In this document: positions 374 to 64,000 of the stretch, piece after piece
Layout: every line of letters starts with the position of its first letter
Numbering within the stretch: position 1 is the first letter of the stretch
NCBI GenBank assembly: GCA_015680905.1
Contig: CM027385.1
Coordinates: 78,885,501 to 78,949,500, forward strand
Length of the DNA: 64,000 bases
DNA from: Coptis chinensis
Taxonomy: Eukaryota > Streptophyta > Magnoliopsida > Ranunculales > Ranunculaceae
Direction: 5' to 3'
The notes under the pieces: generated by a model
What the model saw: only the letters and a program-made list of their open reading frames with translations
Told to the model about the DNA's origin: nothing
The model's database searches: none
Position numbers and translations under genes: made by a program

Positions 374-544
374 AACCAAAACAAATTCCAATGGAAAATT
401 AAATTATACAAAAAATAACATCACAAAACATATAATAGAAAATTTTGCATTCATTATAATGCAAGCTCACATGTATATAAAAAAATAAAAAAAAAAATGG
501 CAAACCAATAATAACAAATATTTTAAAATATATATAATACTACA

Positions 545-1424: not shown

Positions 1425-1765
1425 CATAGTTGTGTTATATGTTGTGGGAATGTCTCGATAAGTATAGTTTTGCATTTAAAATAGTGTTTATTTTATCTTT
1501 TTTCGTATGATTGAAAACGTCTTGCTATTCAAGTAGCTCTAATATGAACTTCGCCTTATTAGGCAATCTCACAAAACTTTAATCAAACTTCTATTATTAA
1601 ACAACAAAATGAAGTTGAAGGGTTTTATCAAGAGTGAGTTTTTTTTTAATGGATAATGGGCTTTTCGCGTTATAAGAAATTTGGACGAGTTATCAATATA
1701 ATATTCATATATAATAGTTCTGCATATATAGTTGCAAATATTTTTCAGAATAATTAATATAACAT
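1425..1765 (+). repeat. Helitron tail module, copy 1
   Basis: This unique segment follows array 1 and is repeated at 3412-3760. Both copies share the GTCTCGAYAAGTATAGTTTT motif, a CAAGTAG(C/T)T block and the closing TTTTTCAGAATAATTAATAT-like stretch. Copy 1 is the more diverged and has no intact hairpin/CTAG terminus. Confidence 0.8.
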
Positions 1766-1929
1766 CACATGTTCGTAGATAATATTTAAAGATCCCACAT
1801 AGTGAGTCGTGTATAATTTAAAGAATAATTAACAGGAAATCGGGAACTAGATAATTTTTTATGATCCCACATTCCCACATAGTAAATGAAACATAATTTA
1901 TTTTTATATCCTGTTTGAAGTTGATATTA

Positions 1930-3411: not shown

Positions 3412-3730
3412 ATAGTTGTATTATTTGTAGAGGGAATATAATGTCTCGACAAGTATAGTTTTGCATTTTAAATAATGTTTATCATAATTATTTTATTATG
3501 ATTGAGAGTGTCTTGTTATTCAAGTAGTTTCAATATCATTTTCGCCACATTGAACATTCTCATCAAACTTCAATTATTAAAAGAAGTCGATAGGTTTTAT
3601 CAAGGTTTGATGTTTTCTTTTTATTGAGAGTTGTGCAAGAAATTTAAATTAGTGATTAATATAATTTTCATATATATCTTATAGCTTTGTATAATTACTA
3701 ATATTTTTTAGAATAATTTAATATAACGGC

Positions 3731-3760
3731 ACCCGTTCGTAAGACGGGTTTGAAAACTAG
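3731..3760 (+). other. Helitron 3' terminal hairpin and CTAG end
   Basis: A 6-bp perfect stem (ACCCGT / ACGGGT) with a TCGTAAG loop lies just before TTGAAAA and CTAG. It is the signal that fixes the element's 3' end and orientation. Confidence 0.78.
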
Positions 3761-23560: not shown

Positions 23561-23746
23561 CAGACCTTATTTTTCAGAGATGCAAACTAGTGAAATAACC
23601 AACAGATAAATCAGAGAATTTTTTAATGAAGCTGGAACGTCTATTCCTGCCCATCAACGGCTGCTATGATGAGTAAAAGGGATCACAAGTTCCCAACCTA
23701 GCTGTAAAAATATCCTTTGTTCTTACCCATCCCTTTTTTCCTATCA

Positions 23747-24215
23747 ACTGAAAAATGGAGTGACAAGGTTTATGCAGAAGATGAATGGATTCAAGTTTAC
23801 GAGTATAAAGAAGAAAATACTTATAAAGTCATTGCATTTGATATTGAAGGTGAGATTTTTCATGAGGTTTCGTACCCTGAGTATTATGGTTCGGATTTGG
23901 TTGATTATATTAGTGTTTGCATTTTAGATGGAAACCTTTGCTTGATTAAACTTGCGGATTCTGGTTGTAAAGATGTATGGGTGATGAAGGAGTATGGTTT
24001 GAGAGTGTCTTGGACGAAACTGTTTAGCATCGAAGAGCCTATTTTGCAGAATTATTGTTTTCGTGTGTTATGTTTTATTGAGAAAGATGACCATTTTCTA
24101 CCTTATGACAGTGATCTATATATGTATTTCTTAAAAGACCAAAGCTTGAAAAAGATTCAGTCTTCCTTTTTCTAGTAAAGCAGCATTCTACGTGGAGAGC
24201 CTTGTTGCACTCAGT
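23747..24215 (+). pseudogene. F-box gene copy 4, 3'-half remnant
   Basis: Homology to the second half of F-box copy 3 starts at about 23747 (KWSDKVY). It runs through YKVIAFDIEGEIFHEV, YPEYYGSDL, LDGNLCLIKLADSGC, WVMKEYGLRVSWTKLFSIEE and QSLKKIQSS. The frame stops at 24175, and the terminal ATxYVESLV block continues out of frame to about 24215. The F-box and the first half of the FBA region are absent. A frame of about 150 residues is still open, but without an F-box it is unlikely to act in an SCF complex. Confidence 0.88.
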
Positions 24216-26094: not shown

Positions 26095-26461
26095 CTACGC
26101 CAATTCCAAATAACTTTTAACTACTGCAGTAGGAAAATAGTTTTCTTTTTTCAGTTCTTTAATTCCTTCCTCTACCATCTGCAATTCAAAAATGTATGAA
26201 ATATGAAAGAAAGAAAATTTAAAGCGCAATTAACTGATTTTAAGGAATTAAAATTGAGTTGGTACTATACCCCTGCATATGGTGGGTAAGTGGGATTGGT
26301 ATTCAAGTCCTTCCAGTCCGGAAGTCTTGCAGCAATCTGCTCGATCTTCCGAAAAAGATTGGCCGGTTAGCTTCCATTGTAGTCATGGCTTCCTTTAGCT
26401 TCTTCATGCACCAATTAAGTTTCATCCATACTTGTGATGGAAGGTGACGTGGTACACTGCT
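26095..26461 (-). pseudogene. 3' end of an unidentified gene, fragment
   Basis: Two exon-like blocks on the minus strand. The upstream block, 26461-26271, reads VPRHLPSQVWMKLNWCMKKL and KEAMTTMEANRP. After a one-base frame shift it continues KIEQIAARLPDWKDLNTNPT and YPPYAG. A GT..AG intron (26270-26179) joins in phase to 26178-26095: MVEEGIKELKKENYFPTAVV, then KSYLELA and a stop. The amino-acid composition and clean splice phase look like a real C-terminus, but I do not recognise the family. The shift near ANRP and the absence of upstream exons suggest a pseudogene fragment. Confidence 0.5.
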
Positions 26462-26925
26462 CTAAGTTTCTCGTTTTTGGATGTAGTTGATCAAAATGAT
26501 ACTGAGATGTTCATAAATGCTAATCGATCTATCATTTATATATTGTATCTGTCATTCAATTCGTCTATTGTTTGCACGAATATGGAGATTATAATCAGCA
26601 TCCATTCTACATTTCTTGGCTTAGCTCAGTTGGTTTTCATGAGTTTGTCCTTGAAAGCAGTTTAATGTGTGGAATCCATAACAGAAAACTTCAAACATGC
26701 CCATCAGCCCATGAGCAAAGCCCTTGAGAAACCACTTTCTAAATTGCTGGTATACAGAACCAGAACACTCGATTACAATATTTCATGAAAGTTTCATGAA
26801 AGTTCCAAAGAGTGGTGAGTTTGATTCCGGGCCAAGTTCATTCCGGGCCATGCATCCTTAAAAACAAAATACACTGGTAGGACAGTACAATTTGTAGAGT
26901 GATTTGAGTTCGGACATAAAAGTTA

Positions 26926-27351
26926 GAAAAAACGACTAAAAAGGGTATCAAACTTTACAAGTTTTGACAATACGGGACCATGACAGTTTGGGACCAAAAT
27001 GTTTGATTTTTGCAATGTAGGACTTCCGTCAAATTTCTCCAACACCGTTTATAATTTGTATTAATTTTTATTTTATAAATTAATAAAAATAAAAATTAAT
27101 TTGTAATGTTGAAAAAAAATTAATATAAATTAATTTGTAATATTGAAAAAAATTAATATAAATTTTATAATTTGCAATGTTGAAAAAAAAATACAAATTA
27201 ATACAAATTAGAAAAAGTGTTAGAGAAATTTAACAGAAGTTCATACATTGCAAAAATCAAACAGTTTGGTCCCCAAACTGTTAGAAAAAAAAGTTTGGTC
27301 CTCATATTATTATAAGGTGTAAAGTTTGATACCTTTTTTAGTCGTTTTTTT
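26926..27351. mobile_element. Mutator-type MITE with long inverted repeats
   Basis: A 426-bp element with ~120-bp imperfect terminal inverted repeats (GAAAAAACGACTAAAAAGGG versus CCTTTTTTAGTCGTTTTTTT; GTTTGATTTTTGCAATGTA versus TACATTGCAAAAATCAAAC). The centre is AT-rich. It is flanked by a perfect 10-bp duplication ATAAAAGTTA (26916-26925 and 27352-27361), fitting the 9-10 bp of Mutator-like elements. No coding sequence. Confidence 0.88.
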
Positions 27352-29650: not shown

Positions 29651-31030
29651 GACCCTAAAATTGAGTTGGTACTATACCCCTGCATATGGTGGGTAAGTGG
29701 GATTGGTATTCAAGTCCTTCCAGTCCGGAAGTCTTGCAGCAATCTGCTCGATCTTCCCAAAAAGATTGGCCGGTTAGCTTCCATTGTAGTCATGGCTTCC
29801 TTTAGCTTCTTCATGCACCAATTAAGTTTCATCCATACTTGTGATGGAAGGTGACGTGGTACACTGCTCTAAGCTTCTCGTTTTTGGATGTAGTTGATCA
29901 AAATGATACTGAGATGTTCATAAATGCTAATCGATCTATCATTTATATATTGTATCTGTCATTCAATTCGCTCTATTGTTTGCAATTTAATATGGAGATT
30001 ATAATCAGCATCCATTCTACATTTCTTGGCTTAGCTCGGTTGGTTTTCATGAGTTTGTCCTTGAAAGCGGTTTAATGTGTGGAATCCATAACAAAAACTT
30101 CAAACATGCCCATCAGCCCATGAGCAAAGCCCTTGAGAAACCACTTTCTAAATTGCTGGTATACAGAACCAGAACACTCGATTACAATATTTCATGAAAG
30201 TTCCAAAGAGTGGTGAGTTTGATTCCGGGCCAAGTTCATTCCGGGCCATGCATCCTTAAAAACAAAATACACTGGTAGGACAGTACAATTTGTAGAGTGA
30301 TTTGAGTTCAGACATAAAAGTTAGAAAAAACGACTAAAAAGGGTATCAAACTTTACAAGTTTTGACAATACGGGACCATGACAGTTTGGGACCAAAATGT
30401 TTGATTTTTGCAATGTAGGGACTTCCGTCAAATTTCTCCAACACCGTTTATAATTTGTATTAATTTTTATTTTATAAATTAATAAAAATAAAAATTAATT
30501 TGTAATGTTGAAAAAAAAATTAATATAAATTAATTTGTAATATTGAAAAAAATTAATATAAATTTTATAATTTGCAATGTTGAAAAAAAAATACAAATTA
30601 ATACAAATTAGAAACGGTGTTAGAGAAAAAGTTAACAAAAGTTCCCCACAACTCTTAAGTCCCCATTAAAAAAGTTGATATTAATATGTTTGATATATAT
30701 ATCTACATAATCCAAATCCCAAGTCTACAAAAAATTTAACAAATTGTTAAACAAAAATCGCGTTTGTATTTGTTTTTTCTACTTATAATTTTTTTTTTTT
30801 TTTTTTGTTTTTGTATAAGTTTATAATTTGGCCCTACTCATTAACTATAAGAAAACTATAAAAAATTAACATTGAAAGTAAAAATTAACTTGTATTTTCT
30901 TATTTTTTACATTTGTTTTGTTTTATAGTGAAATTATTATTGATAAAAAAAAAAATGATAAATTAGTTTTACAAACAATTAGAACAAGTTGGAATATAAG
31001 TCATACAAAAAGTTCTTTAGAGGGGACTCT

Positions 31031-44458: not shown

Positions 44459-46414
44459 ATGGAAGTATCAAAGGAGACCACTGTTGTTGTGAAATCTAGT
44501 AGATTGAAATCACTTGTGTGGAATGACTTTGAAAGGGTTAAAAAGGTGATGTTATGGTGGCTATATGTAAGCATTGTAATAAGAAACTTAGTGCATCTGC
44601 AACTAGTGGAACCTCACATTTGAAGAATCACTTAACTAGATGTAGGAAAAGAGCAAATCGTGAATTAACTCAGAAATTACTTCTAGTCAGAGGAAAACAA
44701 AGAGATGGAGCTATTAAGTTTGAGCAAGATTATGGCCCACTAGATTTTAAGTTTGATCAGGAGCAGAATCTACTACGTCTTAAATTTGATCAGGATAGAA
44801 GTAGATGTGATCTAGCACGCATGATTATTGTGCATGAATATCCACTATCCATGGTCGAACATGCTGGGTTTAGACGATTTGTTACGAATCTTCAGCCATT
44901 GTTTCAACCCATGTCGTGTGAGGCTGTCAAATCTGATTGTGTGCAAATTTATGGCAAAGAGAAGCAAAAGGTGTATGAGATGCTGGATAAAGTTCCTGGT
45001 AGGATTAGCCTCACAGCTGATTTGTGTACTTCATACCAAGATAATGGGTACATGTGTTTGACAGCTCATTATTTCGATGAGTCCTTGCTGTTACAGAAAA
45101 AGGTCCTTAATTTTGTAATGGTTGATCCACACTCGGAACAATCACTTGCAGAAGTGATTAATACATGCCTGATGGAGTGGGACATTGATCGTAAGCTTTT
45201 CTCGATGACATTTGACAAATTATTTTCCAATGAAGTTGTCTTCAGAATTAGAGAACGACTTTCTCAAAGCAGCTTGCTTCTGAACAGTGGTCAGTTATTT
45301 CACGTGCGTTGTGCAACGAATATTCTGAATATGATTGTTCAGAATGTGTTGGAAGCATTACATGAGGTAACACACAAAATTAGAGAAAGTGTAAGGTATG
45401 TTAAAAGCTCAGATACAATACAGCAAAGCTTCAGTGAGATGGCTCAGCAACTGATAGGTGATACTCAGAGGAGTTTGTGTCTTGATTGTCCTTCTCAGTG
45501 GAATACAACTTATGCTATGATTGAAGCTGCAATTGAGTACAAAATTGCATTTTCTCATTTGCAAGAATGTGACTCTGATTACACTTTAGCACCATCTGAT
45601 GTAGAGTGGGAAAGGGCAAGTACTGTTTGTAGATATTTAAAGCTTTTTATTGAAGTTGCTAATGTATTCACGGGTGCGACAACTGCCAACCTTTATTTCC
45701 CTGAGCTATGTGATATTCATCTGCAATTAATTGAACGATGCAAGAGCTCAGATCCTTTCATTCATTCCATGGCACTAAAGATGAAAAGCAGGTTTGATAC
45801 ATATTGGAATATTAGCAGCTTGGTTTTAGCAATTGCAGCCATCTTGGATCCTCGATTCAAGATGAAGTTGGTGGAATATTACTATCCTCAGATCTATGGT
45901 CCCAGTAGTTCGCTGGATCACATCAACGGTTTTTAATGGTATCAAGGATCTTTACCATGAGTATGCTATTTCGGCCAACAATGACTTCATTTGATCATGG
46001 TTTGACTTCTGATGTTCCCAGTAGTAATGGGCTAAAAGGTGCCCTACATAGCATGAATAATGATACCAGGGATAGGCTAAGTGGGTTTGACAAGTTCCTA
46101 AATGATACTTCAGATAACCAACACTTGAAGTCAGAGCTGGATAAATATTTGGAGGAACCTGTCTTTCCTAGGAATGTGGATTTTGACATTTTGAACTGGT
46201 GGAGAGTCAATGCGCCGAAATATCCTATCTTATTCTTGATGGCTCGTGACATTTTGGGGATTCCTATGTCAACGGTTGAATTTGATTCAGCATTCAACAT
46301 TGGAGAACGAGTACTTGATCCATATAGGAGTTCATTAGAGACAGACATTCTACAGGCTCTTGTATGCACACACGACTGGTTGCGGGATGAAACTGAAGGT
46401 TGGTTACTTCATTA
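44459..46414 (+). pseudogene. DAYSLEEPER/RICESLEEPER-like hAT-derived gene, three frame shifts
   Basis: Related to domesticated hAT transposases of plants. MEVSKETTVVVKSSRLKSLV leads into WNDFERVKK. A missing base in the A-run near 44543 shifts the frame, and the long open frame resumes by 44554 with the BED zinc finger (CKHC, then SHLKNHLTRC). The catalytic-core-like region follows (MIIVHEYPLSMVEHAGFRRF, RISLTADLCTS, HVRCATNILNMIVQ, CPSQWNTTYAMIEAA, AAILDPRFKMKLVEYYYPQI). Two more shifts (near 45930 and 45995) flank FNGIKDLYHEYAISANNDF. The C-terminal hAT dimerisation domain is intact (ELDKYLEEPV, FDILNWW, YPILFLMARDILGIPMSTVE, FNIGERVLDPYRSSL). There are no inverted termini, and a 5'-UTR intron is present, so it looks like a host gene rather than a mobile copy. 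An alternative 3' splice (46404 to about 46483) would replace the end with GSEAIRMALS. Confidence 0.8.
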
Positions 46415-49400
46415 GACGTCGTTTAATTTTCTTGTTATAAAATCAAAAGTTCTAATTTGCTTTCATTCATTCTGTGTTTTAGGGTCTGAAGCAATCCGAA
46501 TGGCCCTAAGCATCTCGTCATCTTAGCATGTAAAAAGTATGTGTTTGACATTCCATGTCCCTTCTTTTTTAATAACTTAACATTGAATTGAAGAGAATGA
46601 AGTGCATGAATCATTGTCTTTTGTTCTGCAGGTCAGATGGATAGGGTGGATCGGATTACTGGAATTGATCTACATTGACTCTGCATATTTCCTTTCAGCG
46701 TAACTTAGGCATATGCTCATCTTCTGCATATATTTCCTGTTAACTAATTTATCTAATTTTTGCTTCAATGAGAATCTTGATATGCTGACCTATCTCTGTG
46801 TCTTCGTCTTAGATTTATTTACTATTGTGTAGATAATGGTCTCTACGACTCTACATGACAAAAACTAAGGTTTTCATAATGGTGTTCGCATCTAACATTT
46901 TGGATTTGCGTCATATTAGCGTGCTCATGTTTTGTTGGGATATTCGGTTAGGTGAGCCATGGTGGCGCTGTGTTTCATATATGGCACATTGTGATATATT
47001 GCCACATGGTGGACGAGATTAGGTTCCGATAATGTAATACATATGTTTTGGTTCCGATAATGTAATACATATGTTTTGGTTGATCAACGTTGATCTAGAT
47101 AGGCAGTTTCACATTTAGTCCATGATCAAATATTTATTCAGTTACTTTTGCACAACTTCATAAGAATGAGAGTAACTCCTGTGCATTTGCATTCTCCTTA
47201 TGCAAAGTGAAATTGTAATCTACATACTGAATTTTTGTATTTTGCACTTCGAAACTTACACTGGAGTAGAATTTGAATTGTATTTTCCAACTGCATTTAC
47301 TATGGTAATCATGATTTCCTTGCCATAAATTGCCCACCAGTAACACAGAGTAAAAGAATGACAAGTAAAAATGCGGCTTCCATTTGCAAACCGTTATCAA
47401 ACTACGGACTAAACTGGGATAACGTTTGGTTGAGCCCATAGCAAAAGCAAACTGTGTTTAGGCTATGAGGTAAGTGGGGCGCTTCGGCTTACGTTTTTAG
47501 TCAAATCCTCTTTTAAAAGCTCCACTCCAACCAAATGCCCAGTTTTCTTTTTCTCTGCAAAATCAGCAAAATGTGTGGATTTTTTTTTGATAGTGGAGAC
47601 CCATGATAAAGAGACAAATGCGTCAGCCGTGATAAATTCAACAAATTGTATGGATAATGCACCAAAAGCTCGAAACTGTAAGAACTTGTCAATGTTAGAG
47701 ACATAAACCACTGTATGTTGCTTTAGAATTCATAGATACAAATTATACAACACAATTATGCAAACTATTACATGTTGAATTTATGAACAGTATGTTATTT
47801 CTGTTACTCATGTTCTTTACTTTTCTTTTTTCCTTTGTACAGCTTTTCATGATCAATCATATTCGTTCTTGTCCAGGGACATTTCATTTGTTATTTAAGC
47901 AATAGCTAAACTAAATATGCAATTTATTGTAGTAGGTTTACGCCATCAAAGACAATCATGAATCATCAAGAATTTTTGGACGTCTAAAGATGTATTATGT
48001 TGCCTGTGGTCCTGATTCAATCAGTACAAAGTTAAAAAAAAACAGAAAACAGAAATGATTCGGTATTGACGTCGACTCTTATGAATAGCACATGTGCACT
48101 TCAATATGAACTGTATTTTCTTCTTTCTTTCAGGTTAACCATCCCATCTAATGTAGAAGAAATCGTCTTGAGTCCATTTAGTCTAATACTTGTTTTCCCC
48201 ACTAATAAAGTGAGATTCTTATTCAGGTGTTATTATTTGCAATCTTGTCCACAAAATGAAGTTCTGAAAGACTAAAACTCCTAACTTTTGTGTAAATAAA
48301 AAAAAATCCTTTTTTTCAAGTTTTCCCGTTTAGGGTAGTAAACGCATTGCTTGTAGAGTTGCATATAGACACTAATACCACTAATTAAGGATAATTTCTC
48401 GTAGGTAATTCTCGTTATGGTTTCATTGCTCCCTTGAATTCAACTCTTCAATTCCATGTTTTTATTTTTGCATATTAGAGAGTTGTGGACACATGAGTTT
48501 GCTAAGATAATCTAATTCAGCAGTAGGGATGTTATAACGTCTAACTGGAATTACTAAATTTAATCAATGCATTCGGAATGGGGAACTCTGAAAAAATTAG
48601 CAATTCTATTATAGTGAAGTTCATTTCTAGATTTGTGTTCCAACTTCCAACAACAAAGTTATAGAACACAATAGCTTATACTTGACGAGCATGGTTTGCT
48701 TGAGTCCTTTTATCCATTTCTTAGCTATTCATTCGCAATGCTGGTTCTCAGCTCTTTGTTGTAATTTTGATTTTATGCCGGTACAGATTATCTTCTTCTA
48801 TAGTACATATTAGGGTTCAATTATCACCTTACGTATGCACGTACATATAGTAGTACTAGATACCAAAACTGGCACATGTGATGTTTGTGACACAAGGCTG
48901 TCAAGTGAGGCAGCATTCCTGCAGATGTACAACTAGTTTCTTGCAAGGCCTATTTTGTAAGGTTTTTATGTGTACATTACCTAAGTTGAGCTATATTACC
49001 AGTTACCACACAACTTGTCTATGTCTACGATCATTCTACTTTGCTGACGCTTACACATCATTTAGGGACCATCGGCAAGAATTGATTAATTGGGATAGAT
49101 TTTCCATTAGAGGAGTGGAATTCACAGGTTATAAAAAAAATTTACATCCCAAATCAATATGGACTCCAACTAATCGACTGTAATGGGTCCCTGATTGAAG
49201 AAGATGGACGCGGTGTTATTTTGTTTGAGTAGACTCCCCTATTCTAATACGTAGTTAAGAAGGTTTGGATTCTTGTTTAAGAATACCCGCATCTTGAGTC
49301 TAAGAAGTACAGGGAATATTAGTCACTTTCGTCTTAAACTTGAATTCGACATGAATAATACAAGTACTCTAATTAATTTTATCAAGGCTAGCTTTTTAGT

Positions 49401-50720
49401 TATTTAGTAGAATTGGGAACAATAACCATTGGCTTTCAAAATGTTTGTATTGCTAAGTCCTAACTCTGTAGGTGCTCCTATGATTACTCGCTTGACCCCA
49501 TTTTAACACGTCTCATCCAATTTCCATCCGATTTTATGAAACGTATGACTATACAAGCTCAATATATTCTCTAGCTAATTCTAACCACTATTATCCATAC
49601 TAAGTTAATATACAAATGTAAATAATTAAGTTAAAAGAAACTGTCTCACTTCGTCTAGTTGGATGAAGAAACATTAAGAGATTTCGAGATGGCTACCTAG
49701 AGAGCAAGAGCAAGAGTAGTGTTGTCTGGTGTTTAAGGGGCTAATGTCGAAATGAGTAGTGAAATATGTTAAGTTTTCTGATTTGGTTTAGCCACAGCCG
49801 GCAGTAATTAACACAGAAAAATTAAAGCAAGATAATTAATCAACATTAACCAGGCTGACCCACCCTGATGAATTTTGTTAGTAGGTTAATGATAAGACGG
49901 CTTATCTTTCCATAGAATGCATTAGGAAATAGTTGTCCAAAACTCCAGGTGTGTTTTGAAGATTGTAGGACCTCATTTTCTATATCTGGACTAAGGACCA
50001 GTTCATCTTCCAAAAACGTTGTCCCAGCTTCTAGTCCCTAGTGATATTAAACTCCATTCTTACATACAAGAAATTGGGAAATGGAGGGGTATGCATCAGA
50101 TGGGAGTCACCTTCAGCCCTTCACTTAGGGATGGAGAATGTCACAGTCCTAGCTAATAACTTTTTTGACTATATTACCAAATACCAAAGAAGAGAAATAT
50201 TACAAGTCCTCAGAAATTATAAAGCCATAAACATGAGATGATGAGAGAAATCCTTGTTAGATTTTCTTCTTTTATTCTATCACTTCTGAATGCAACTCAG
50301 CATTATTTGGCTGAATGTCACATTCACATTCAGCCTCATTTAATAAATTCTGTCCAAAGTCCCTTTCAACCTATAGTGCTCTCCATCACCATGAAATAGA
50401 CCTTTATGTATTCTCTCTCTCTCTCTCTTTCTCTCTCTTCCTGATCTCTTTCTAACTTTGTTTGATGAGTGAGTAAGAAGTCTTTGTTCTTAATTTGCTT
50501 TGTGCTTGTTATAGCTTCTTCCTATTTCAGTTACAAAAGTTCTCTTGCTATTTCTGAACATTTCCTTGGGTTTTTCTTCAAGAGGTTTGTGAAGAAACAA
50601 TTGAAGTAAAGCATGATTCTTTAGTCTCTTTAGTCCAATTTACCATTCTTCATTTCCTTTTTCTTTATTTTCAGCGCAACAACGGAGTTCCCAATTCAAG
50701 ACGACTCTCCCACACAAAAA
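46415..50720. other. Long intergenic region upstream of the MADS-box gene
   Basis: About 4.3 kb with no supported gene. Small frames here lack family features. It includes a 28-bp tandem duplication (about 47024-47079, TTTTGGTTCCGATAATGTAA repeated) and a (CT)n tract at 50412-50440 in the likely MADS leader/promoter. Probable 5' UTR lies at about 50450-50720. Confidence 0.5.
50412..50440 (+). promoter_or_regulatory. CT-rich (GAGA-type) tract upstream of the MADS gene
   Basis: A nearly pure CT repeat about 300 bp before the start codon. Such tracts are bound by BPC/GAGA-binding proteins in promoters of plant MADS-box genes of the AGAMOUS and SEEDSTICK type. That role here is inferred from position and composition. 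Confidence 0.4.
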
Positions 50721-53700
50721 ATGGGAAGAGGAAAGATTGAAATCAAGCGAATTGAAAATACTACGAACAGACAAGTCACCTTCTGTAAGCGTCGCAATGG
50801 TTTACTCAAGAAGGCCTATGAATTGTCTGTCCTTTGTGAAGCCGAGGTTGCTCTTATCGTCTTCTCTAACCGTGGTCGCCTTTATGAGTATGCCAACAAT
50901 AGGTATCTCATACAACTCTTCTGCTCTTACTCCTTCTGTATTTCAAGAGCTTATTTAGCTCATGGTCTAACTAGAGTCCTAAAATGGTACTTGTTCTTGT
51001 TTCAAACATATTAGGGTTTCCTTTTTCCTATAATCTAATTTTTCACCTTGTTAGATTTCCTACAAGAACTATACAATTTTTTCTTCTCTTTCTTATATAT
51101 GTGTTTATATTTTTTGCTTCATTTTTAGATCATGGTTTTTGTAGGTTATATTAGATCAGTTCTGATGGATATATATAGCACTGTTTGCATCTTTTAACAC
51201 TGTTTTTCTGTACTGTCCCAATTTTTTTGTGACATTTTTTTCTCTCTCTCTCTCTCAAGTTCTCAATCTTCAGCTAGAGTCTAGCTATCATCCAGTTTCC
51301 AAAAAAAGGACTGGGCTGGTTATATGTGTAAGGCACCAGATCAGTGAAACAACAAGTTTTAAAGCAATTTTGCAATCAAAAAGTAAATTAGGGTTCTAAT
51401 TAGGGTTGTCATCCAAGATGAGTCCTTAAAATGAATTTTCTACCAGATTTTACAACAAATTTTCATAATCCCACCTAACAAATCCTTTTTTCTTTTCCAG
51501 TAAAGCTATACAAAATATATTGTTTTAGATCTCTTACTATTTCTATTTTTCATCAATAATACACTGTCCAGGTATCCATTCCATCATTCCATTTTTTTTT
51601 TCCATCTGACAAACAACTGATAAAAGATCAATGAAGTAGGACAATAAAAGCAAGATTTACATCAAAATAGTATATAAGCAATTAAAGTATTCTAAAATAT
51701 CTCTTGGGGCTCATTCAAAACACTCCATCTCACTGACTGAAATCAGATTAGTGTGTTGAAGCTTCATATGCAGGTATTAAGTTGTTGCATATTTTGGTGT
51801 CTGTTACCCTTTTAAGACAGATATGTATGTTTTAACTTAAAAGGGAAGGTGATATTATGTGGCTGTCTTGGTTAGATACGTGGAATCTTTGGTCACGTTT
51901 TGTGGTATTTTCAGCTCTTAAAATCTGACAAGAAAATGGTCTTCCAATGCTGCACACTCTTTGCATTTTATGTGCAAATATGAAACTTTTTCCACATTAG
52001 CCTTTTAATGAGCTTTTTTAGAAGAAGCTGAACCAATGGAGATTGGAGAGAGGCTGAGAGAGAGAGTTTTGTAACGTGATACATCGAAAATTGGAGACTG
52101 CCTGGTTAAAAAGTTAGGTTGACTGGTTTTTCACAGTGGCACTATGGATATTCTCTAGTTTACCAATGTCAAGATTATGGAAAAATGCTTAGAAAATACA
52201 CGTGTCTTTGTGATCTCCATCAGATGGTTGAGATGGGAAATTCAATCATTTTATAGGATCTTGTTTCATGGTTATCGACGAAGTTAAGGTTAAAAACCTC
52301 TCTAGAAAAGAGAGCCTGCTTTGCTGTGGATATGTGTATTTTCTCACCTATGATTGGACAACGGAAATGCAATTGCAATGATGAGAGGTGAATTTACATT
52401 AGGGATTAGACCACATATGATAGAGTCCTATTTCAATGCACAAAAAACTCTAATTTTTGGGACATCACAAACTTACGTGGATAAGTGGAAGGTTTAACTT
52501 TTTTTTTTTATCTAAATCATTATTTAACTCTTCAAGGCTGGCATAGGATACCTTGGGAACTATGGAAAATTCGCCTATGCAAACATTTAACATATCAACG
52601 AATCAAAGACAACATTATATTTTAAGGCAAAACTGACTATGTATGATTTTCATTCTGTTTAGCAACTACAACGAGGAATGAAATGTTCACCAACTCCCCC
52701 AAGTGTTCAAAGTATATATACTCATTAAAAAAATTTACACAAAATGTGCTAAAATTTGCAATGCCTTGCAGTGTGAGAAGGACGATTGACAGGTATAAGA
52801 AGACATGTACCGATGCATCAAGTTCGTTAACTGTATCGGAAGCCAACACTCTGGTAAGGTTCATTTGTGTATGTTAATAGGGATTGAAATCCTATTGCGA
52901 ATCATTTGTGTATGTTAATAATTGTAGCATTTGATTAACTCGATCACTTTTGAATTACGCAATCATCTCAGTTTTACCAGCAAGAGACCTCGAAACTCAA
53001 ACAACAAGTTGAGATTCTTCAAAACTCAAACAGGTGAGATCGACACTGGTTGAGCTCATTTGAATAAAAGGTTTGCCTTGTACAATTTTATTAATAAGTT
53101 TCAGTCTGCAGGCATTTGAAGGGTGAAGCTCTTAGCTGCTTGAGCATTAAGGAGCTCAAACAACTTGAAAGTAGATTAGAGAAAGGCATCAGTAGAATCC
53201 GTTCGAAAAAGGTACTTGTTCGTTTTTCCATCCAATTGTTGATTCTTAGTGAAAGAAAATATACTAACAGTTTTCGAATTTAATTTATTGAACAGAATGA
53301 GATGCTGTTGGCTGAGATTGAGTATATGCAGAAGAGGGTAAATGCATACTTTATACATTTGCTTGTCACATTTTGATATCAGCAAGCATAGAGATTGTAC
53401 TCTAATATAATTACCATATTAAATGTGCTTTGGTTGCAGGAGATTGACTTGCACAATGACAATATATATCTCAGATCCAAGGTTTTCTCTCATAAACAAA
53501 CCTTTTATTCTCTAAACAGGTTCTACCATTACATATTTACATGCATGGTTGTCATTAAAAATGTTTCTTAAGTTGCTAGGTACGAGTTTGTAATTTGGAT
53601 GTTGTGGAGTTGTGACCATCTAAAGAAGTTTTAAGAGAACCTAAACTCTGAATGCTCTAGTATCTAATTTAATTGCATGTCTCAAGATATTCCAGTTTGC

Positions 53701-54104
53701 CACGCCCAATGTCTCGTTCCTTCCTCAGTATATATACATGTGTGTTTTTAGTGACAATTTTGCATGTGTAGATAGCGGAGAATGAAAGAGCCCAGCAACA
53801 CATGAACTCATTGCCTGGGAACGAATATGAAGCTATGACTTCAGCACCATATGACGCTCGCAACTTCCTCCAAGTAAATTTACCTGAGTCCAAACAGCAG
53901 CAGTATATTTCAGAGCTAACTGCCCTCCAACTTCGGTAAGGATACAATGAGGACACGTACAACGACTTTCTAGAATTTGCATCACAAGAAACAAACAATT
54001 AATGTATATGTCTCATTGATAAGATTTAGATTTAATTGCTTTGCAATGATATTTAATTTCACGCCCATAATTATTCTAATTATGTTCTTTCCATTTGCAG
54101 TTAA
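50721..54104 (+). CDS. AGAMOUS/PLENA-lineage MADS-box transcription factor
   Basis: Eight exons: 50721-50902, 52772-52853, 52972-53033, 53112-53211, 53296-53337, 53440-53481, 53772-53935, 54101-54104; 225 residues. This is MIKC type. The MADS domain (1-60) has [38 protein letters not shown] and [10 protein letters not shown]. The I region has [20 protein letters not shown]. The K domain has [40 protein letters not shown] and [20 protein letters not shown]. The C-terminus has [24 protein letters not shown] and a closing TALQLR, corresponding to AG motifs I and II. C-class proteins set stamen and carpel identity and end floral meristem growth as tetramers with SEP proteins. The 42-nt K exons and a last exon of one base plus the stop are typical of the family. 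No N-terminal extension is seen. The lineage (AG versus PLE/SHP) is not resolved. The gene looks intact. Confidence 0.93.
50903..52771 (+). promoter_or_regulatory. Large first coding intron, likely enhancer
   Basis: A 1,869-bp intron directly after the MADS exon, the position of the regulatory second intron of AGAMOUS. It contains CCAATGG (52033-52039, LEAFY-like core CCANTG) and TGATTGG (52351-52357, the complement of the CCAATCA box known in AG introns). No full CArG box was found by eye. The regulatory role is inferred by position. Confidence 0.5.
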
Positions 54105-54526
54105 TTTGCTGAAGGAAGCATGTCCCAACAGTTCGTTCTTTTGAGTTCTCTTTTGTGGTATCTGAAAAAGTAGAGTTTATCCAATTATCCCAGTGAGGGA
54201 TTTTGTTCATTGAGTTCTTTATTCTGGTTACTTGTTATAATCTCAATATGAAAGATAGTACTTTCATTCAAGTTAGCATACACGAGACGTATGTTATGAA
54301 TAATTAACTTATCTAATACATTGGTTTTGAGGGGTTCGTCCCCCATATATATATGTATAAACAGCTCCATTGTGTGATAGGTAGCAAAGCGATTCAGTGT
54401 GCGCGAATGCGTTTCTTTGACGTGATATGATCTTATTATCTAAGTTTGTAAATCTTTAATTATTCACCAGATGTGATCAAGTTAAATTCTGTTTGGTGAA
54501 AATGAGTCGTCTCGACCAGATCAGAT

Positions 54527-55202
54527 TGTTGGAGTTATCCCTCACATGAGGAGAGAAACCGGAGCGGACGTAAAAACGCAAACTTCGACATCGACATCCG
54601 AGGTCGAGCGCCAGCTAAGGGCGCCCGGAGCTCCGGTAACATAGGGCGACCAGCTTCAAAGTGAAGCGCCAGCGCTCGATGTCCAGTTCTTGGTGACTTC
54701 ATCAAGGCCAGAGTGATGCGCCAGCGGCCAGTCTATTTTTCGTGGGCTTGCTACAAGATCCGCGAATTTGGTTTTTGGAGATAAAACCAAAAATCAAGGT
54801 TTTGGAAAACCTAACCAATGTAACCAAACAAGTCGGGATTGGAATCCGTGACTAAAACAAAAGAGATAACCTTTACTGAGAGATACAACCCTCGTAAAGA
54901 GATAAGAGTGATCTAGTAAAGGTGAGAGACCAGTAAAGGAGAGATTGTAATCTTCCTTCCCACTTTATTAAGAACTGGCTCTTGTGGAAGTAGGCATCAT
55001 TACCGAACCACGGTAAATCTTTGTGTTGTGGTTTGCTTTTATTTGCTTTACATTATTATCTATTGTTAATAGTTGTTTAGCGAGTTGGGCATGTTAGTAT
55101 AGGTAGTTTGTGATATTTGAGATTTATTTGGAGTTGAAGTGTGTTTCATACAAGTTATCCGTGTAGTGGGGAACCCGATTGATATTGTTGTAATCCCCAA
55201 CA
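54527..55202 (+). repeat. 5' LTR of the Copia element
   Basis: 676 bp, starts TGTTGGAGTTATCCCTCACA and ends TAATCCCCAACA; the primer-binding site follows directly. Confidence 0.92.
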
Positions 55203-58200
55203 AGTGGTATCGTGAGCCAGTTAGAATAAATGGGGTGTTATCCGAATCTTGGTCGGGGTGTTTGAAAATTCCCCGAGAAAGATTTGAGGTTAAATAACTT
55301 GTAGAGATGGACCATTCCGTGAACACTCGTATGATGAGTCCGAATAGGAAGAACTACACCATCCGAAAGCCAAGATGGAAGACTTGCTATACCGCAAAGG
55401 ACTTGGCACTTCCCATTGAGAATGAGGAGTAAAACCGTAAAAAGGCCCGATGAGGCCGAGAAAAAAGCTTGACAGAAAGCTATCGGGTACATTCGACAAT
55501 GGATAGACGATGGTGTCTTTCACCATGTGGCCCAAAGAGACTACGACCTTCTATGGAAGAAACTCGAAGACCTTTATGAGAGGAAGTCGGGTGGAAACAA
55601 AGTGCTAGTCGTTAAGAAGTTTGCGGACACCGCACCAAGAAGGTTCTTCAATGTCCGAAAGCATCTTAATGAAGTACGTAATATCATCAATCGATGCATT
55701 TGATGAAGATCAATTTGGGAGACGGTTGAGGCTTTGTTTCTATTAGGCTCTACCCGAAAAGTTGGGAGACATTAGCAGCTTCTACATGGAGCAGCCGGGA
55801 TGGAATTGTTACCATGGAGATGGCTACCACGCCTTTGTTGAATGAGGAGACTAGAAGGAGTGCAAGAAGCGACTCTTCTAACTTCGGAGGTCCTTTTCAC
55901 GAGAAACGGGGAGAGGTCGGGCGAAAACCATCTCGCTTCTAGGTGATGATGTATAAATCTAGGGGTGAAGCTAGAACTCCTAAGGCGCAGAGGCAATGTT
56001 ACTATTGTTGCCACCAAAGGCCACTTCGATATGATATGAAAAGTAACAATCAAGAGGGATGAGAAGAATAACCGTGTACATGAAGACATGGTGCGAGGAA
56101 CGGAAACACAGCAGAGATACTACCGCACTAGTCGATGACCTAGTGGGAATTGGTCGATTGGGGTGTGTCCGTCTTAGTACCTCATGTCGATACTGAGTGG
56201 GTGATAGATACAGAGCATCCTATCACGCCACACCGCGACGGGGATTCTTCACTACCTACGGTGTGGTGAATATGGTGAAGTAAGGATGGGTAACAAAGTT
56301 GAGTCTCAAGATTATAGGCATTGGAGATGTTCATGTACAAACCAATGTCGGGCTACACCTTGACACTTTCGAAAGGATGTAAGACATGTCCCCGACATAC
56401 GGCTAAGCCTAATTTCGGCCGGGAAATTAGATGATGATGGCTTTGTAAACTCGTTTGGTAACGGGTATGGAACCCAACCCGAGGTTCCATTGTAGCGTGA
56501 GGAAAGAAAACTTGCTCTCTTTACAAAACACGCGAGGGCTAGTTTGTGTAAAGCGTTTAAATCGTAAGAAGAAGCTTCATCCGAATGGCACAAGAGACCG
56601 TGGTCACATGGGCATAAAAGGGATGGAAGTTCTTGCTAAGCAAAAGGCCATGCCGGACATTAAAGGTACACATTTAAGTACATGTACTCATTGTTTGGTA
56701 GGAAAGCAACACGGGGTGTCTTTCCAAAGATTCCCGCCTCACGAAAAGGACAAATCCTTGAGCTAGTGCAGGCAATACGACTTATGTGGTCCTATGAGAG
56801 TGAAGTCCCACACCGGGGAGTTTCTTCTTGACATTCATTGATGATCGTCAAGAAAGATATGGGCCTATAGTCCGAAGACCAAGGATGAAGTACTTGGCGT
56901 GTTTGAGAAATTCCACGATGGTGGAAAGAGAGACTGGAAGTTGTTGAAGTGTATTCGCCGGATAATGGGGGTGAGTACATTGGGCCATTTGAAGAGTATT
57001 GCCGAGTCATGGGATTCGCCATGAGCGCACCGCTTCCCAGACACCGCAAAGAATGGAATAGCGAGAGAATGAACCGCACCATTGTAGAGAGGATAAGATG
57101 CATGCTATCTCACTCTAAGCTACCTAGAAGCTACCGGGTAGAAGCAATGCGCATGGTACGGCATGTGATCAACCCGTCACCGAAGAAAGCCTCCTCAATA
57201 GTGATTATCCGAGAGAGTATGGTCGGCGAGATGTTGATTATGGATACTTGAGGGTATTTGGGTGCGGGGCATTTGTGCATATTCCGGGATGAGAGATCCA
57301 AGCTTGATGACAAAGCCAAGCGGTGCATTTTTCCGGGTTATGGAGATGAAAAGTTTGGTTACAAACTCTATGATCCGATTAACAAGAAGGTAATCCAAGT
57401 CGAGATGTTGTGTTCTGGAAGACCAAACCATAGCAGACTTTGAGGAGGGTGAGAAGCTTCTGTGGCTTTCACCAATGATCTTGTTGATTCGAACCGGTTC
57501 CTACCGTGGAACGTCGCGTAAAGGCATTGAGAATGCAGAGAACCATGAGTTTGAAGCTCATGATGAGAATCCTATTGCTCATGATGGGATAGAACCTATT
57601 GGTATAGAAGATGCAGATGAGATGCATGAACCACCACCGAAAGCAAGCGAAGTGTATCCTCCCGAGGCACCCGCCAGATGGGGCAAGGAGGTCCGACAGA
57701 GAGAGACTAGCTTCAACTGTATCCACCACATAATGCGTGCTACTATCGGATGGTGGAGAACCTATGTACTATCAAGAGGCACTTGAAGGTACGCATAAAA
57801 GAAAAGTGGTTGAAGGCCATGCATGACGAGATGGATTCTTTGCATAAGAATCACACTTATGAAGTTAGTTGAGAAACCCACAGGGAGAAAAGTTCTCAAG
57901 AATAAGTGGATATACAAAGTCAAGCATGAGGAGAACAATCCTCACCCAAGGCACAAAGCTCGCCTTGTTGTGAAGGGATTCGGGTCAAAGAAAAGGAATT
58001 GACTTTGATGAGATTTTCTCTCAGTAGTGAAGATGACTTCTATCCGGGTGGTATTGGGTATGACCGCAAGTATGAACCTAGAGGTTGAAAGCAGCCTAGA
58101 TGTTAAGACAGCCTTTTCTTCATGGAGACCTTGAAGAAGATGTCTACATGGACCCGACGAGGGGGTTTGAGGTCAAAGGCAAGGAGCACCTAGTATGCAA

Positions 58201-59373
58201 GCGATAAAGAGCTTGTATGGGTTGAAGCAAGCACCGAGACGTACATAAAGTTTGACTCCTTTATGGTGAAGCAAGGATACAAGAAGTCCGCTCCCATCAT
58301 TGTGTGTTTGTTCGTAGATTTCCGGATGGGGATTTCATTGTGCTATTGGCCGTATGTGGATGATATGTTGATAGTTGGCCCAAACATCAACAAGATATCC
58401 AAGCCGAAGAAAGACTTGAGTAAGTCCTTTGAGATGAAGGATTTGGGTCAAGCAAAGCAGATACTTGGGATGCGGGATCACTTTCGTGACGAAAAGAGTG
58501 GAAAGTTGTGGCTTTCAAGAAAGCTACATTGAGAAGGTGTTGAAGAGATTCAACATGGATCAAAGCGAAGCCCGGTCGGTTGTCCGCTTGGTGGCGGTTC
58601 GCATGACCAAAGAGATGTGTCCCTAAGGGTGAGCATGAGCAGAGTCGATGGAAAAGATTCCTTATGCATCCGCAGCGGGCGCTTTGATGTATGCCATGGT
58701 GTGTACTAGACCGGATATTGCTTTTCGCCGTTGGGGTGGTAAGCGATTTCAAAATCCGGTAAAGAGCATTGGGAAGGTGTTAAGTGGATATTGAGATATC
58801 TCAAAGGCACTTCCAAATCATGTTTGTGCTTTGGTGGAAGTAAGCCCTTACTTGAAGGCTACAATCGATGCGCATACGGCGGTGATGTTGACTGATGAAG
58901 TCCACCTCCGGTTATCCGGTTACTTTTGCGGGGGGAGCAGTTTCTTGGCAATCTAAGTTGCAAAAGTGTGTTGCCCTCCACCACTACGCCGAGTATATTG
59001 CGGCCACCGAAAGTGTTGCAAAGAGTTGCTATGGATGAAGAGGTTCTTCGACGAACCGGGGCTAAAACGTAAACAGTTTGTAGTTCTATGTGATGACGGT
59101 CGAGGCGCCATCCACTTGAGCAAGAATCCGAAGTTTTCATTCTAGATCCAAGCACATACACGCATGCTTATCATTGATTAGAGAAGTACTCGAAGACAAG
59201 CATTTGTGTATCGAGAAGATCCATACCGACAAGAACGGGTCGGATATGATGACCAAAAGTCTTACCGAAAGGTAAGTTTGATGTTTGTTGTGCTATTGCC
59301 GAATGGCGACACTCCTCCCGCTGATTTGGCAATTGCATGGAGGTAGCCCCCTCACCGCTCGAGGGGGGGAGAT

Positions 59374-60032
59374 TGTTGGAGTTATCCCTCACATGAGGAG
59401 AGAAACCGGAGCCGAAAACGGCAAACTCGACATCCGTAAGTCGAGCTCGATCTGGCCGCCGCTTCCGCCAGCGCTCCAAGAATATAGGGCTTAATTCGCT
59501 CAAAGTGAGCGCCACCCGTGTCAGTGTCTTCAGCCGACTTCGCCAGAGTGAGCGCCGGCCGCAGTCTATTTTTCGTGGGCTTGCTACAGTATCCGCGAAT
59601 TTGGTTTTTGGAGATAAAACCAAAAATCAAGGTTTTGGAAAACCTAACCAACAGAACCAAACAAGTCAGAAGGATTGGAATCCAGACTAAAACAAAGAGA
59701 GATAACCTTTACAGAGATACAACCCTGTAAAGAGATAAGAGTGATCTAGTAAGGTGAGAGACTGTAAAGGAGAGATTGTAATCTTCCTTCCCACTTTATT
59801 AAGAACTGGCTCTTGTGGAAGTAGGCATCATTGGCCGAACCACGGTAAATCTTTGTGTTGTGGTTTGCTTTTACTGCTTTACATTATTATCTATTGTTAA
59901 TAGTTGTTTAGCGAGTTGGGCATGTTAGTATAGGTAGTTTGTGATATTTGAGATTTATTTGGAGTTGAAGTGTGTTCATACAAGTTATCTGTGTAGTGGG
60001 GGAACCGATTGATATTGTTGTAATCCCCAACA
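59374..60032 (+). repeat. 3' LTR of the Copia element
   Basis: 659 bp, same ends as the 5' LTR, preceded by the GAGGGGGGGAGAT polypurine tract and followed by the CAGAT duplication. Confidence 0.92.
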
Positions 60033-60037
60033 CAGAT

Positions 60038-60552
60038 TCCCAATTTCAGCTGCTAAGAAACATATTTTGTCTAACTCTTGTAATCTCCTACCCCTTTTCC
60101 TATACTCAATACAATTCTCAGCTCACAAGGCCAAAAAAAACTAACTCATCAAAAAACAAAATAAATTTGTGTTTTATGCATGGTTGATTCAATTCTCTCC
60201 CAAAGGCATGTCCTAAATTTAATTTGGAGTTTGTTCCATTCATCCAAATCGTGGACCTGAAAGCAATATATCGCGCTTTTTACATATAGTTGGGGATTTG
60301 AAATTATCGGAATTAAAATCTGAAAACTAAAATTCACAATATTTCGACCAATGTCATATTTTGATTTCGACTAATTTTGAAATCATCAATATTTCGACCC
60401 TAGGTTGTTTTTCATATTTTTTAAACCGAAAATATCGGCAAAATTTTGGCATTTAAAACGCGAATCATGAACACCGCTTTTTGATTGTAGATTTAATTTT
60501 GAGCATACCCACGAGAGAAAAAAAATAATAATAAAAAAAATAATAATAATAA
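60038..60552. other. Flank between the Copia element and the inverted repeat
   Basis: No gene seen. 60290-60470 is AT-rich with repeated AATATTTCGAC motifs, and (AAT)n-like tracts run up to the inverted repeat. Confidence 0.45.
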
Positions 60553-61748
60553 TAGTTGAAGTATGAAAAAGCGTAAGTACCTATCGTTGTTAAAGGATCG
60601 AAGAGATTGTTTTGCTCGATTATTTCCTAATGTAATTTCTTCGTTCTTTTATATACTTTACAATGTTAAAGTAATGATTCAGTTATTGTTTTTCTGAAAT
60701 TGGGTTGTTAGTTTATTTGTGGATTGTGTTGTTTTGGACTTTTTGGTTATCGGGGTGCGAAAACCATATTCATACGGTTAGAATGATATTAATTGGGTTG
60801 TACAACATTGCATAGTTATTGTTTGACAAATTATTTGAAAGGGGAATTATATCATTGTCAATTAAGAAAAGGTTGTGAAATTGGTTTGGATGAAGAAATA
60901 TTGGATTATAGTAGATAGTTATGTGGCTATGTTGTCTAAGGCTCAATTTTTAGTATCGACGACAAATAATAGTTATGTAAGAAAAATCCAAGAATTTATG
61001 GTGTGGACATTTTAATATTTAGGAAAAGCATCAAATAGGGATAGGGAAGGTCGGGGGAGGGATTAAAAGACTGTGTGTTTATGCTATGTTCTCAGACTTT
61101 GTGTTTGTGATGTGAAAAAATAATTATTTCTTAAAGGCTAACTGAACAAGTGAAAAACCTGAAACACAAAGTCTGAGAACATAGCATAAAGCCATAAACA
61201 CACGGTCCTTTAATCCCTCCCATGAACCCCTCTGTCCTATTTGACAACTTTCCCTAAATATTAAAATGTCTACATCATAAATCCTTGAATTTTTCTTACA
61301 GAACTATTGCTTGTTGTCGATACTAAAAATAGAGCCTTAAACAACATAGCCTCATAACTACTTACTACAATCCAATATTTTAATCAACTTCATCCAAACC
61401 AATTTCACGACTTTTTCTTAATTGACAATGACATAATTCCCCTTTCAAACAATTTGTCAAACAATTACAATGCAATGTTATATCTACAACCCAATTAACA
61501 TTATTTTAACAGTATGAATATGGCTTCTTGCACCGGCCCACACAACAAAAACAACACAATCCACATATAAATTAACAATCCAATTTCAGAAAAACAACAA
61601 CTGAATCATTATTTTAACATACTGTAAAGTTTAAAAAAACAGAAGAAATTACCTTAGGAAATAATCAGGATTGGAGCAGGAACAATCTCTTTGATCCTTT
61701 AACAAGGCATATGTCATTTGCACTTAGGTTTTTTTCACACTTCAATTA
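60553..61748. repeat. Very long inverted repeat (foldback structure)
   Basis: The left arm 60553-61106 is the reverse complement of the right arm 61162-61748, separated by about 55 bp. Matched blocks run along the whole length. From outside in they include TTGTTAAAGGATC with GATCCTTTAACAA, GGGGAATTATATCATTGTCA with TGACAATGACATAATTCCCC, and ATGCTATGTTCTCAGACTTT with AAAGTCTGAGAACATAGCAT. Identity is roughly 85% by eye and highest near the loop. No open frame or transposase is present. It could be a foldback/MITE-type element or a hairpin-RNA locus. Confidence 0.92.
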
Positions 61749-61752
61749 GTGT

Positions 61753-64000
61753 GGTTTTTTTTTTTTCTTCTAAAGTAAAAATTTTATTGATACTGATGAG
61801 GAATTTTACAAATAATTAGGACAAGCGTGCAACAAGCTGCGCCGCAAGTCCTTTCTGAATAGCAAATCATATTCTTCTAAAAACAAACTCATTAGAACCA
61901 ACTGTCATAACGTTACTGTTCATAACTCTCTGAAGTCTCTTGAGAAGCTCAACAGCCTGTTGTTCCAAGAAACCGAAAGTGTCAAAACTAAACGGAATGA
62001 AACAATGCTGGTTAGCCGTGCAAGCTTCCTCATGCTTCTCCATCTTCCCTATCACTGCTCTCTTAGCTGCTTCTCCCACCTCAAAGACTCCATTCCCAAG
62101 CCCTACCAACGGAGAGAGGATTATCAACACATGCATGTCTCCCCTCGGACCAATCAGATATCAATACATCCGCAGGACGAAGTGTCGATCTGCTCTCATT
62201 CGGATCAGTGAGAAAGTTAACAGGAGCCTCTTTCTTCACTTGTACCCCGGCCACCCCTTCAAAATGCATCATACAAAATGTTTCTAACATGATCATGTCC
62301 ATTTAAAACCGGAAAATGTCTACAATGTCTTTGCATGGTCCCCAAAGGCATCTAATCTACTTTTTTGCATACAGGATAAAGACCCCGAGTCCAGTACTGA
62401 GAGGAATCATAAGGCGGTACCCGAGAATGGCACGATACTCCACGTGACATACCGGCCCCAGTCCTCCATCGAATAGCAAGTAGAAAATCTTTTCAATGTT
62501 CCGACTGCAAGCATCCAATGACTGCTTTCTGACGAGTAGAGAACTCAAACTCCCTCTCAAGACTAGCAACAATCTTACCATAAAAAGCTTCTGCCAAAAC
62601 TTTTTGTGGTTTTGAGGGGACGGTAGCATTCACAGCCAGATAATCAAAGTCAAAATCGGGAAGACAGAGACGCAATGCATTGGTAGCATTACTAAGGATC
62701 TCACCCATAGGCATTGGACCACAACTCCTAAGAATGTGGTTCTGAAGCTCTGAAGTTTGAAAACGGGAGGCTACAAAAGCAAAAGCAGAGACATCAGAGG
62801 CACAATAGATACCTAACCCACCAAGGCGCAATAGAAGCTTCGCTAAACGCCACTGCAAATCACCGAAGCCAGGACCATCAGAAACTATAATGCCCTGCAA
62901 AACCATGCGAATGTGCTGATCAAAAGTCTTAGCTGCCTCCCTAAAAAAAGGTGGTAGACAAGTATGAACTGCAAAAACCAATTTGGAGAGCCCAGCACAA
63001 GCTCGTAAAAGTGCTAACTCACACTGTGGATCCTCTAATGCAGCTAAACGGTCCATCGAAGTCATAGCCTTTTCAACACGCTTTACGAAAGCAAGACTCA
63101 TGACAAAAAGAATCGGTGCTAACTGCCCCTCAAGTAACGACCCCATGTTGAGGACAAGATAAATCGAAGGAAAGAGACCGGGGAGTGGAATGGCGCGGAT
63201 CCGATGATGGCCAAAATATCTCGGTCTTGGCCACATTAAGAACCAACCCATAAGAAGGCCCTTCTTCCCCGAATGATACGCAGAGCTGCATCCACTTGTT
63301 CTCAGATCCCCAACTAGAGTCCCATCATCTAAGTACCAAGCACGGAGCAATAATTGACAACTTGACCCGGATCGTAGAATCGAGGAGGGTGCAACACCGG
63401 TCTGAAGAGAAGGGGACCCAAAGGATCACCTTGCTGAACCCGTGGAGCGGACCATATGTAATCATCCCCAAGTATAATCTTGCGGTGACAATACAAAATA
63501 CTCGAACCAAGGGAAATAGCGGGGAGTAGCGAATCACGAACCTCTCTCAACATAGTAGTCCGATCCAACCATATTAAAGGCATTCTGAAAATCAACTAGT
63601 AACATAGAAAGAGATGTACTTCATCATTTAGCACATACCATGCGATTAACGGCCAAAATGCAAAATCTGCTTGTCATCTTGGGACACCAACCCCATCCTT
63701 AAAAATCCTGCAAAGTACCCTACCACCTATTTGGAAACCCCCTTTTTGCAATTTTGGAAACAAGACGTTTTGAACCATACCCACAGACTATCCAACGAAT
63801 CCCATTATCCTTTTTAAGAAGTGGACACACAGTAGTAACTCTCATAGAATCATTCTAGCTCTCCAGACATTGTCCACTGTAACCCTCATTCACCAATAAT
63901 AAGGCATCTAACAAGTTAGACTTGTCATAGGCTTGGGATTCATTGCATCCTGGCCCATCTAACAAGTCGCATGGTTAGGAACCGATAAGAGCCCAAAACT
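61753..64000 (-). mobile_element. LINE-type reverse transcriptase element, 3' part, decayed
   Basis: Minus orientation: the T-run at 61753-61767 is its poly(A) tail, and the 5' end lies beyond the window. From 63600 leftward the frames read LLVDFQNAFNMV, QQGDPLGPLLF and AWYLDDGTLVGD (RT palm with the YLDD catalytic motif, 63340-63305). A long frame 63350-62493 then has DPQCELALLRACAGLSKLVF, GPGFGDLQWRLAKLLLRLGG and SRFQTSELQNHIL. Further fragments are LRPADVLISDW (about 62190) and PFSFDTFGFLEQQAVELLKR (about 61990-61930). This set is a widespread plant non-LTR RT family. Several frame shifts separate the blocks, so it is inactive. Confidence 0.82.

Follow-up and report, generated by a model that had tools for sequence, protein, structure and literature searches.

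The window, a stretch of 64,000 nucleotides of the Coptis chinensis genome (C9:78885501-78949500), carries on its forward strand a MADS-box gene (50721-54112), recognised by an SRF-TF domain in exon 1 (3e-27), whose 3' end was placed by eye at about 53.94-54.11 kb, and a Ty1/copia-type LTR retrotransposon (54527-60032) with an RVT_2 domain and the target duplication CAGAT. These lie upstream of a large palindrome, which is followed on the reverse strand by a LINE with a reverse transcriptase gene (61766-63921). No Pfam match was obtained for the LINE frame in the window, where the longest frame is 310 aa; in a paralogous copy of this region, described below, the LINE has an open frame that matches RVT_1 (6e-13) and reaches 406 aa. 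Elsewhere the window contains a large tandem-repeat array (525-3741, self-matches of about 67-84%) and an F-box gene cluster (11458-12609, 19132-20325 and 23717-24175) situated within diverged tandem copies, the first two members being assigned by the Pfam F-box domain and the third by DNA similarity. A second palindrome (26927-27350, 74% self-match) is found inside a direct repeat (26249-27242 and 29656-30644, 97%), in the second copy of which (30325-30644) the palindromic self-match is limited to 30433-30628.

The large palindrome consists of a left arm (60553-61106), a loop of 55 bases (61107-61161) and a right arm (61162-61748). The arms are identical in 488 of 543 alignment columns, with 19 gaps, and they align locally with a score of 687, whereas none of 200 first-order Markov shuffles scored above 39; the giant inverted repeat with arms of about 550 bp and a loop of about 55 bp that a sequence-only reading had described is therefore real. 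The same is true of the potential of a transcript to form a hairpin, since the predicted RNA fold (-643.5 kcal/mol) lies far below the energies of shuffled sequences (mean about -230, best -260, n = 12); it includes six uninterrupted helices of at least 21 bp. The arms had also been said to be best matched near the loop, which holds for the 29 nt adjoining it (100% matched) but not otherwise, as the outer half of the arms has 27 mismatches and the inner half 28. The arms contain no open frame that reaches 90 aa, and they are about 10% diverged. The palindrome is a real structure with an ordinary cause.

A search of the 936-Mb genome with the palindrome yielded at least 84 matches at 43 or more places on contigs C1-C9, corresponding to at least 34 loci when matches were merged at 10 kb; all genome match counts are minimum values. 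The window and the paralogous palindrome account for two of the 34 loci, and 19 of the 32 others (L007-L025) were examined, plus the paralog. All 19 dispersed loci carry element sequence that continues past the arm, often rearranged or split by inserts (e.g. L017, L018, L019 and L024). Full-length copies of the family start with CAGGGGCGGATC and finish with GGCTCCGCCACTG, or with close variants of these. In a pattern search, short terminal inverted repeats of hAT type were recognised at both ends in 10 of the 20 loci scanned; in the other 10 the two ends were not recognised together. The 8-mers flanking the ten two-ended loci, scored as the better of two registers, agree at all eight positions in three cases, at seven in six and at six in one. 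Thus, nine of the ten show an 8-bp target site duplication with agreement at 7 or more of 8 positions, a level reached by 0.1% of random positions. The two-ended count includes both L016 and L022, which are mutual paralogs and alike beyond the element. Unit length is 872-1056 bp in eight uninterrupted two-ended copies, and is exceeded by the scored end pairs at L016 (2.4 kb) and L018 (2.6 kb).

A more distant match on contig C3 (L031) shares with the family the 5' end of the element (about positions 9-80) and the region of the intron end and start codon (750-937), and downstream of these it has separate open frames matching DUF4371 (4e-46) and Dimer_Tnp_hAT (4e-6). In L031 the 3' terminal repeat was not recognised and the frame is broken, which leaves the 5' half as the basis of the link to a transposase. 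Together, the hAT-type ends and the 5' parts shared with a locus bearing transposase domains identify the arm family as non-autonomous hAT elements. Judged by these alignments, the arms are predicted leader and intron sequence of this dispersed transposon, and the family has the look of an element shortened by internal deletion, with the leader, the intron and the first codons kept. We take this DUF4371-carrying family to belong to the Tip100-like branch of hAT elements. The window itself also contains a hAT-type transposase gene (44554-46415), made up of two abutting frames, the first with a BED zinc finger and a hAT-like RNase-H domain; no DNA match between this gene and the arm family was seen.

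When a full copy of the element (L012:2601-3656) is used as the reference for numbering, the left arm proves to be a truncated copy on the forward strand (60553-61113) covering element positions 144-725, and the right arm with most of the loop a second truncated copy on the reverse strand (61116-61765) covering positions 131-779 reversed, each 84% identical to the reference. The right copy lacks a 16-base family stretch beside the loop, as read by eye from the alignment. The loop begins with the final few bases of the left copy, passes the junction near 61114 and continues into more 3'-ward sequence of the right copy; it is largely right-copy sequence that is absent from the left copy. Both copies lack their 3' ends and are joined tail to tail, and the 580-650 bp that they have in common make up a long, imperfect palindrome. 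At the left edge an A-rich tract (60528-60552, forward strand) occupies a place that is also A-rich in full-length copies, and here, near element position 130-145, the left copy has lost its 5' end. The LINE interrupts the right copy, its A-rich 3' end lying inside the A-rich tract of that copy. Beyond the LINE, the paralog resumes the element at positions of about 139-64 and then passes into an AT microsatellite; the window and the paralog diverge at 63921, before this far-side remainder. The identity of the arms, their orientation, the breakpoints and the LINE within the right copy are all observed, as is the same junction in a paralogous block. We are highly confident that the palindrome is a relic made of two truncated copies of one non-autonomous hAT element, whose tails meet near element positions 725 and 779. 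The earlier statement that no known element ends could be recognised stands to the extent that ends are absent, because both copies have lost them; it missed that the arms are the interior of a transposon. As a unit, the palindrome has no terminal repeats of its own and no coding frame of at least 90 aa, and is therefore not expected to move.

Losses at the same place were seen elsewhere in the family: in L009 and L010, as in the left arm, the 5' end is lost close to this A-rich tract (element positions of about 142-149), where the LINE of the right copy is also found. It is possible that this tract is a hot spot for breakage or insertion. In L024 (2261-2983) the first part of a family copy is inverted beside the remainder, so that inversions inside the family are not unique to the window.

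A second whole palindrome, 97% identical to that of the window, is located 161 kb away on the same contig (C9:79107220-79108421), with a predicted fold of -721.5 kcal/mol across 1205 nt. It is part of a block near C9:79090500-79110600 that matches window positions 38296-63921 minus the copia element and holds the MADS-box gene, the palindrome and the LINE; the block was viewed from C9:79090500 on and may reach further left. The empty copia site in the paralog is clean, and CAGAT is duplicated in the window. That the palindrome might be a part of the copia element was rejected, since that element stops at 60032, is bounded by a target duplication of its own and has an empty counterpart site. 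From the end of the MADS-box gene to the palindrome the distance is about 0.9-1.1 kb in the copia-free paralog and 6.4-6.6 kb in the window. The exact junction word occurs at two places only, the window and the paralog. When 3 mismatches were allowed, three further matches appeared, none of them at listed family loci, and a reversed control pattern gave one match. As the junction is common to both blocks, the palindrome is older than the split of the blocks and the copia insertion; the LTR divergence of the copia element is 0.05 and the divergence of the arms 0.11.

Because the junction is shared, a single accidental error of assembly also becomes less probable. An artefact produced by a self-folded read or a chimaera would fit with the general difficulty of assembling long palindromes, with the unusual density of small differences from the paralog within 60.03-63.9 kb (right arm excepted), and with the chance that the paralog is a second haplotype placed in tandem. 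However, both palindrome and junction recur at another locus, which has changes of its own, and arms that differ at about 10% of columns and at 19 gaps are unlike those of a self-folded read. The doubt is thereby reduced, though not removed, and we regard an artefact as very unlikely.

The two blocks could have arisen by a true duplication, or the assembly could have set two haplotypes in tandem. They are about 99% alike outside 60033-63921. Within that interval, leaving aside the right arm and loop, the window differs from the paralog by 2-7% substitutions and 18-42 small indels per kb, compared with 0.15-0.56% substitutions and about 3 indels per kb in 50001-54526; the right arm (587 columns) shows 1.0% substitutions and zero indels. 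Differences in the left arm are mostly window-derived, with 25 of 37 substitution columns in the family alignment, a count inflated by misalignment (12 in a pairwise alignment). The dense differences in 60033-63921 may reflect either local consensus error or an uneven history.

In order to see how the two arms are related, we compared them with other members of the family in a tree comprising 18 dispersed copies and the window arms, from which L024 was omitted because it has too little continuous core, and in which the paralog's two arms stood in for L026. The shape of the tree is close to a star; starred pairs were confined to L016 with L022 and to each window arm with its counterpart in the paralog. 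In a single common alignment the arm-to-arm identity is 89.9% for the paralog and 86.0% for the window, while the 153 pairs formed by the 18 copies have a mean of 89.6% (range 83-98). The arms have four derived changes in common in the paralog and two in the window, and other pairs have a mean of 2.1, with 18 of 153 reaching four. By these measures, neither pair of arms stands out as closer than pairs of other family members. A grouping of all four arms in one clade was not rejected (AU p 0.41), and by identity, derived changes and this test, a sister relationship of the arms is neither supported nor rejected. The star-like tree, the average identity and the AU result thus leave two trimmed insertions or an early doubling in place, between which we consider the odds about even.

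The joining event itself is something we infer. Two nearby inverted copies may have lost the intervening DNA, including their 3' ends. Alternatively, a single copy would have been duplicated in place soon after the burst of the family, either through a break that was repaired by folding back or through local re-insertion of a copy in inverse orientation soon after the family had spread. Duplication in place, to which we give an even chance, would account for the nearly identical stretch of the element that the two arms span, with inner ends about 54 element positions apart. Chance neighbours are rare in the genome (118 first-look candidates in 936 Mb, 40 of them scored), and by our own estimate two chance insertions within about 1 kb are unlikely for a family of this size; the AU test, moreover, does not reject the arms as one clade. 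On the other hand, the arms are not especially close to one another and have no excess of common derived changes, the latter speaking for two insertions; an event in place would need to date from about the time of the burst.

The sequence-only reading had proposed that many homologues of the arms in the genome would indicate a foldback transposon, and had advised a look for flanking target duplications. Many copies of the arm sequence do exist, but the arrangement of two arms was found nowhere else among the listed matches. Long inverted arms of dispersed sequence are what an FB/FARE-like element, with the arms as its own terminal repeats, would present. Nevertheless, the 19 examined loci carry sequence beyond the arm, ten loci show the short terminal repeats of the element, and no independent mobile palindromic copies with target duplications were encountered. 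A scan for flanking duplications of 6-12 bp around the palindrome returned A/T runs only, a result weakened by the LINE that forms the right flank. With the junction confined to the window and the paralog, and no other listed place having two arms, the palindrome does not represent a foldback transposon family, and we give that explanation next to no credence.

A further suggestion, that of a young MIRNA-type locus or an inverted duplication of a source gene, is not supported, given the origin of the arms, which are dispersed hAT sequence about 10% diverged. At the loop end, an Rfam scan of 58000-64000 gave weak matches to MIR5512 (46.8 bits), mir-4875 (34 and 33.8 bits, one per strand) and MIR7504 (33 bits), which could be taken to favour a MIRNA gene or a young precursor. 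These are far under the gathering scores of 139, 90 and 83, and no match in the scanned interval attained its gathering score. The present foldback, at over 1.1 kb, is longer than accepted plant MIRNA precursors, and the source is a transposon rather than a gene; a MIRNA origin is accordingly very hard to credit. A gene-derived inverted duplication was rejected as well, as the splice donor in the right arm lies in the leader of the hAT family, whose intron end and start-codon region is common to L031.

Transitions between the arms that keep a G:U pair (19) are about as numerous as those that break pairing (18). Since the arms are no closer than other family members and G:U-keeping changes are not favoured, there is no sign of selection on the fold, and we rejected such selection as a candidate. 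The palindrome is probably without an evolved function; from this analysis its most likely state would be that of an inert relic, which may be methylated and may give some 24-nt siRNAs. Like an inverted-repeat siRNA locus, it is a long repeat with the predicted ability to form dsRNA. Read-through transcription would provide such dsRNA and then, by precedent, 24-nt siRNAs matching the hAT family, and production of siRNAs from the palindrome appears plausible on these grounds. The precedent is Arabidopsis: of 634 inverted repeats situated no more than 3 kb from a gene, about 486 make 24-nt siRNAs according to the review PMC12595863.

A functional siRNA locus, with the hAT family as its target in trans or the MADS-box gene in cis, after the manner of Mu killer or of the gene-side repeats of Arabidopsis, would draw on that precedent, on the strong predicted folds of both palindromes with their long uninterrupted helices, and on the position of the paralogous palindrome about 1 kb from the end of the MADS-box gene. 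It is nonetheless unlikely, given that changes show no bias towards preserving G:U pairs, that the arms drift as other copies do, and that in the window a 5.5-kb copia element separates the palindrome from the gene. More specifically, the paralogous palindrome might be read through from the MADS-box gene and its siRNAs might silence hAT elements in trans, the window copy having been disconnected by the copia element; we consider this improbable. If it were true, the connected and disconnected hairpin loci would constitute a natural pair, and should siRNAs be found, paralogs near to and far from the same MADS-box gene would offer a handy natural comparison.

The locus illustrates that striking long hairpins can arise from ordinary transposon debris, and it calls for caution, as neither hairpin length nor a view of the sequence by itself is enough to tell a MIRNA-type locus from a pair of inverted transposon fragments. 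Among known systems, gene-side inverted repeats of transposon origin, such as those of Arabidopsis and that of HaWRKY6 in sunflower (as covered in a passage of PMC12595863), are likewise transposon-derived repeats near a gene; they are reported with siRNA data, whereas the window has fused truncated copies known from sequence. Mu killer of maize, according to a section of PMC3440606, is also a partial inverted arrangement of transposon sequence, and the proposal there is that transcription of a neighbouring gene runs on through it and yields a long hairpin RNA. In contrast to the window arms, which are non-coding, it includes transposase-gene sequence, and its silencing of MuDR/Mu lines has been reported, an example of a transposon family silenced by an inverted fragment of one of its members. 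Fold-back inversions from broken ends resemble the palindrome in their inverted arms with a short spacer, the outcome expected of fold-back priming in the portions of PMC7467729 and PMC10622511 that deal with it; those cases come from yeast, disease and cancer, and with window arms that have no excess relatedness the mechanism is a candidate only. Finally, while the window arms differ from Tip100-like non-autonomous elements in being internal fragments devoid of ends, the family from which they derive compares well with hAT-Tip100-like elements: it has a longer relative with DUF4371 and hAT dimerisation domains (L031), and its terminal repeat, beginning CAGGGGCGGAT, and 8-bp duplications correspond to the terminal repeat CAGGGGCGGAG and 8-bp target duplication published for Tip100 (in an excerpt of PMC12511174).
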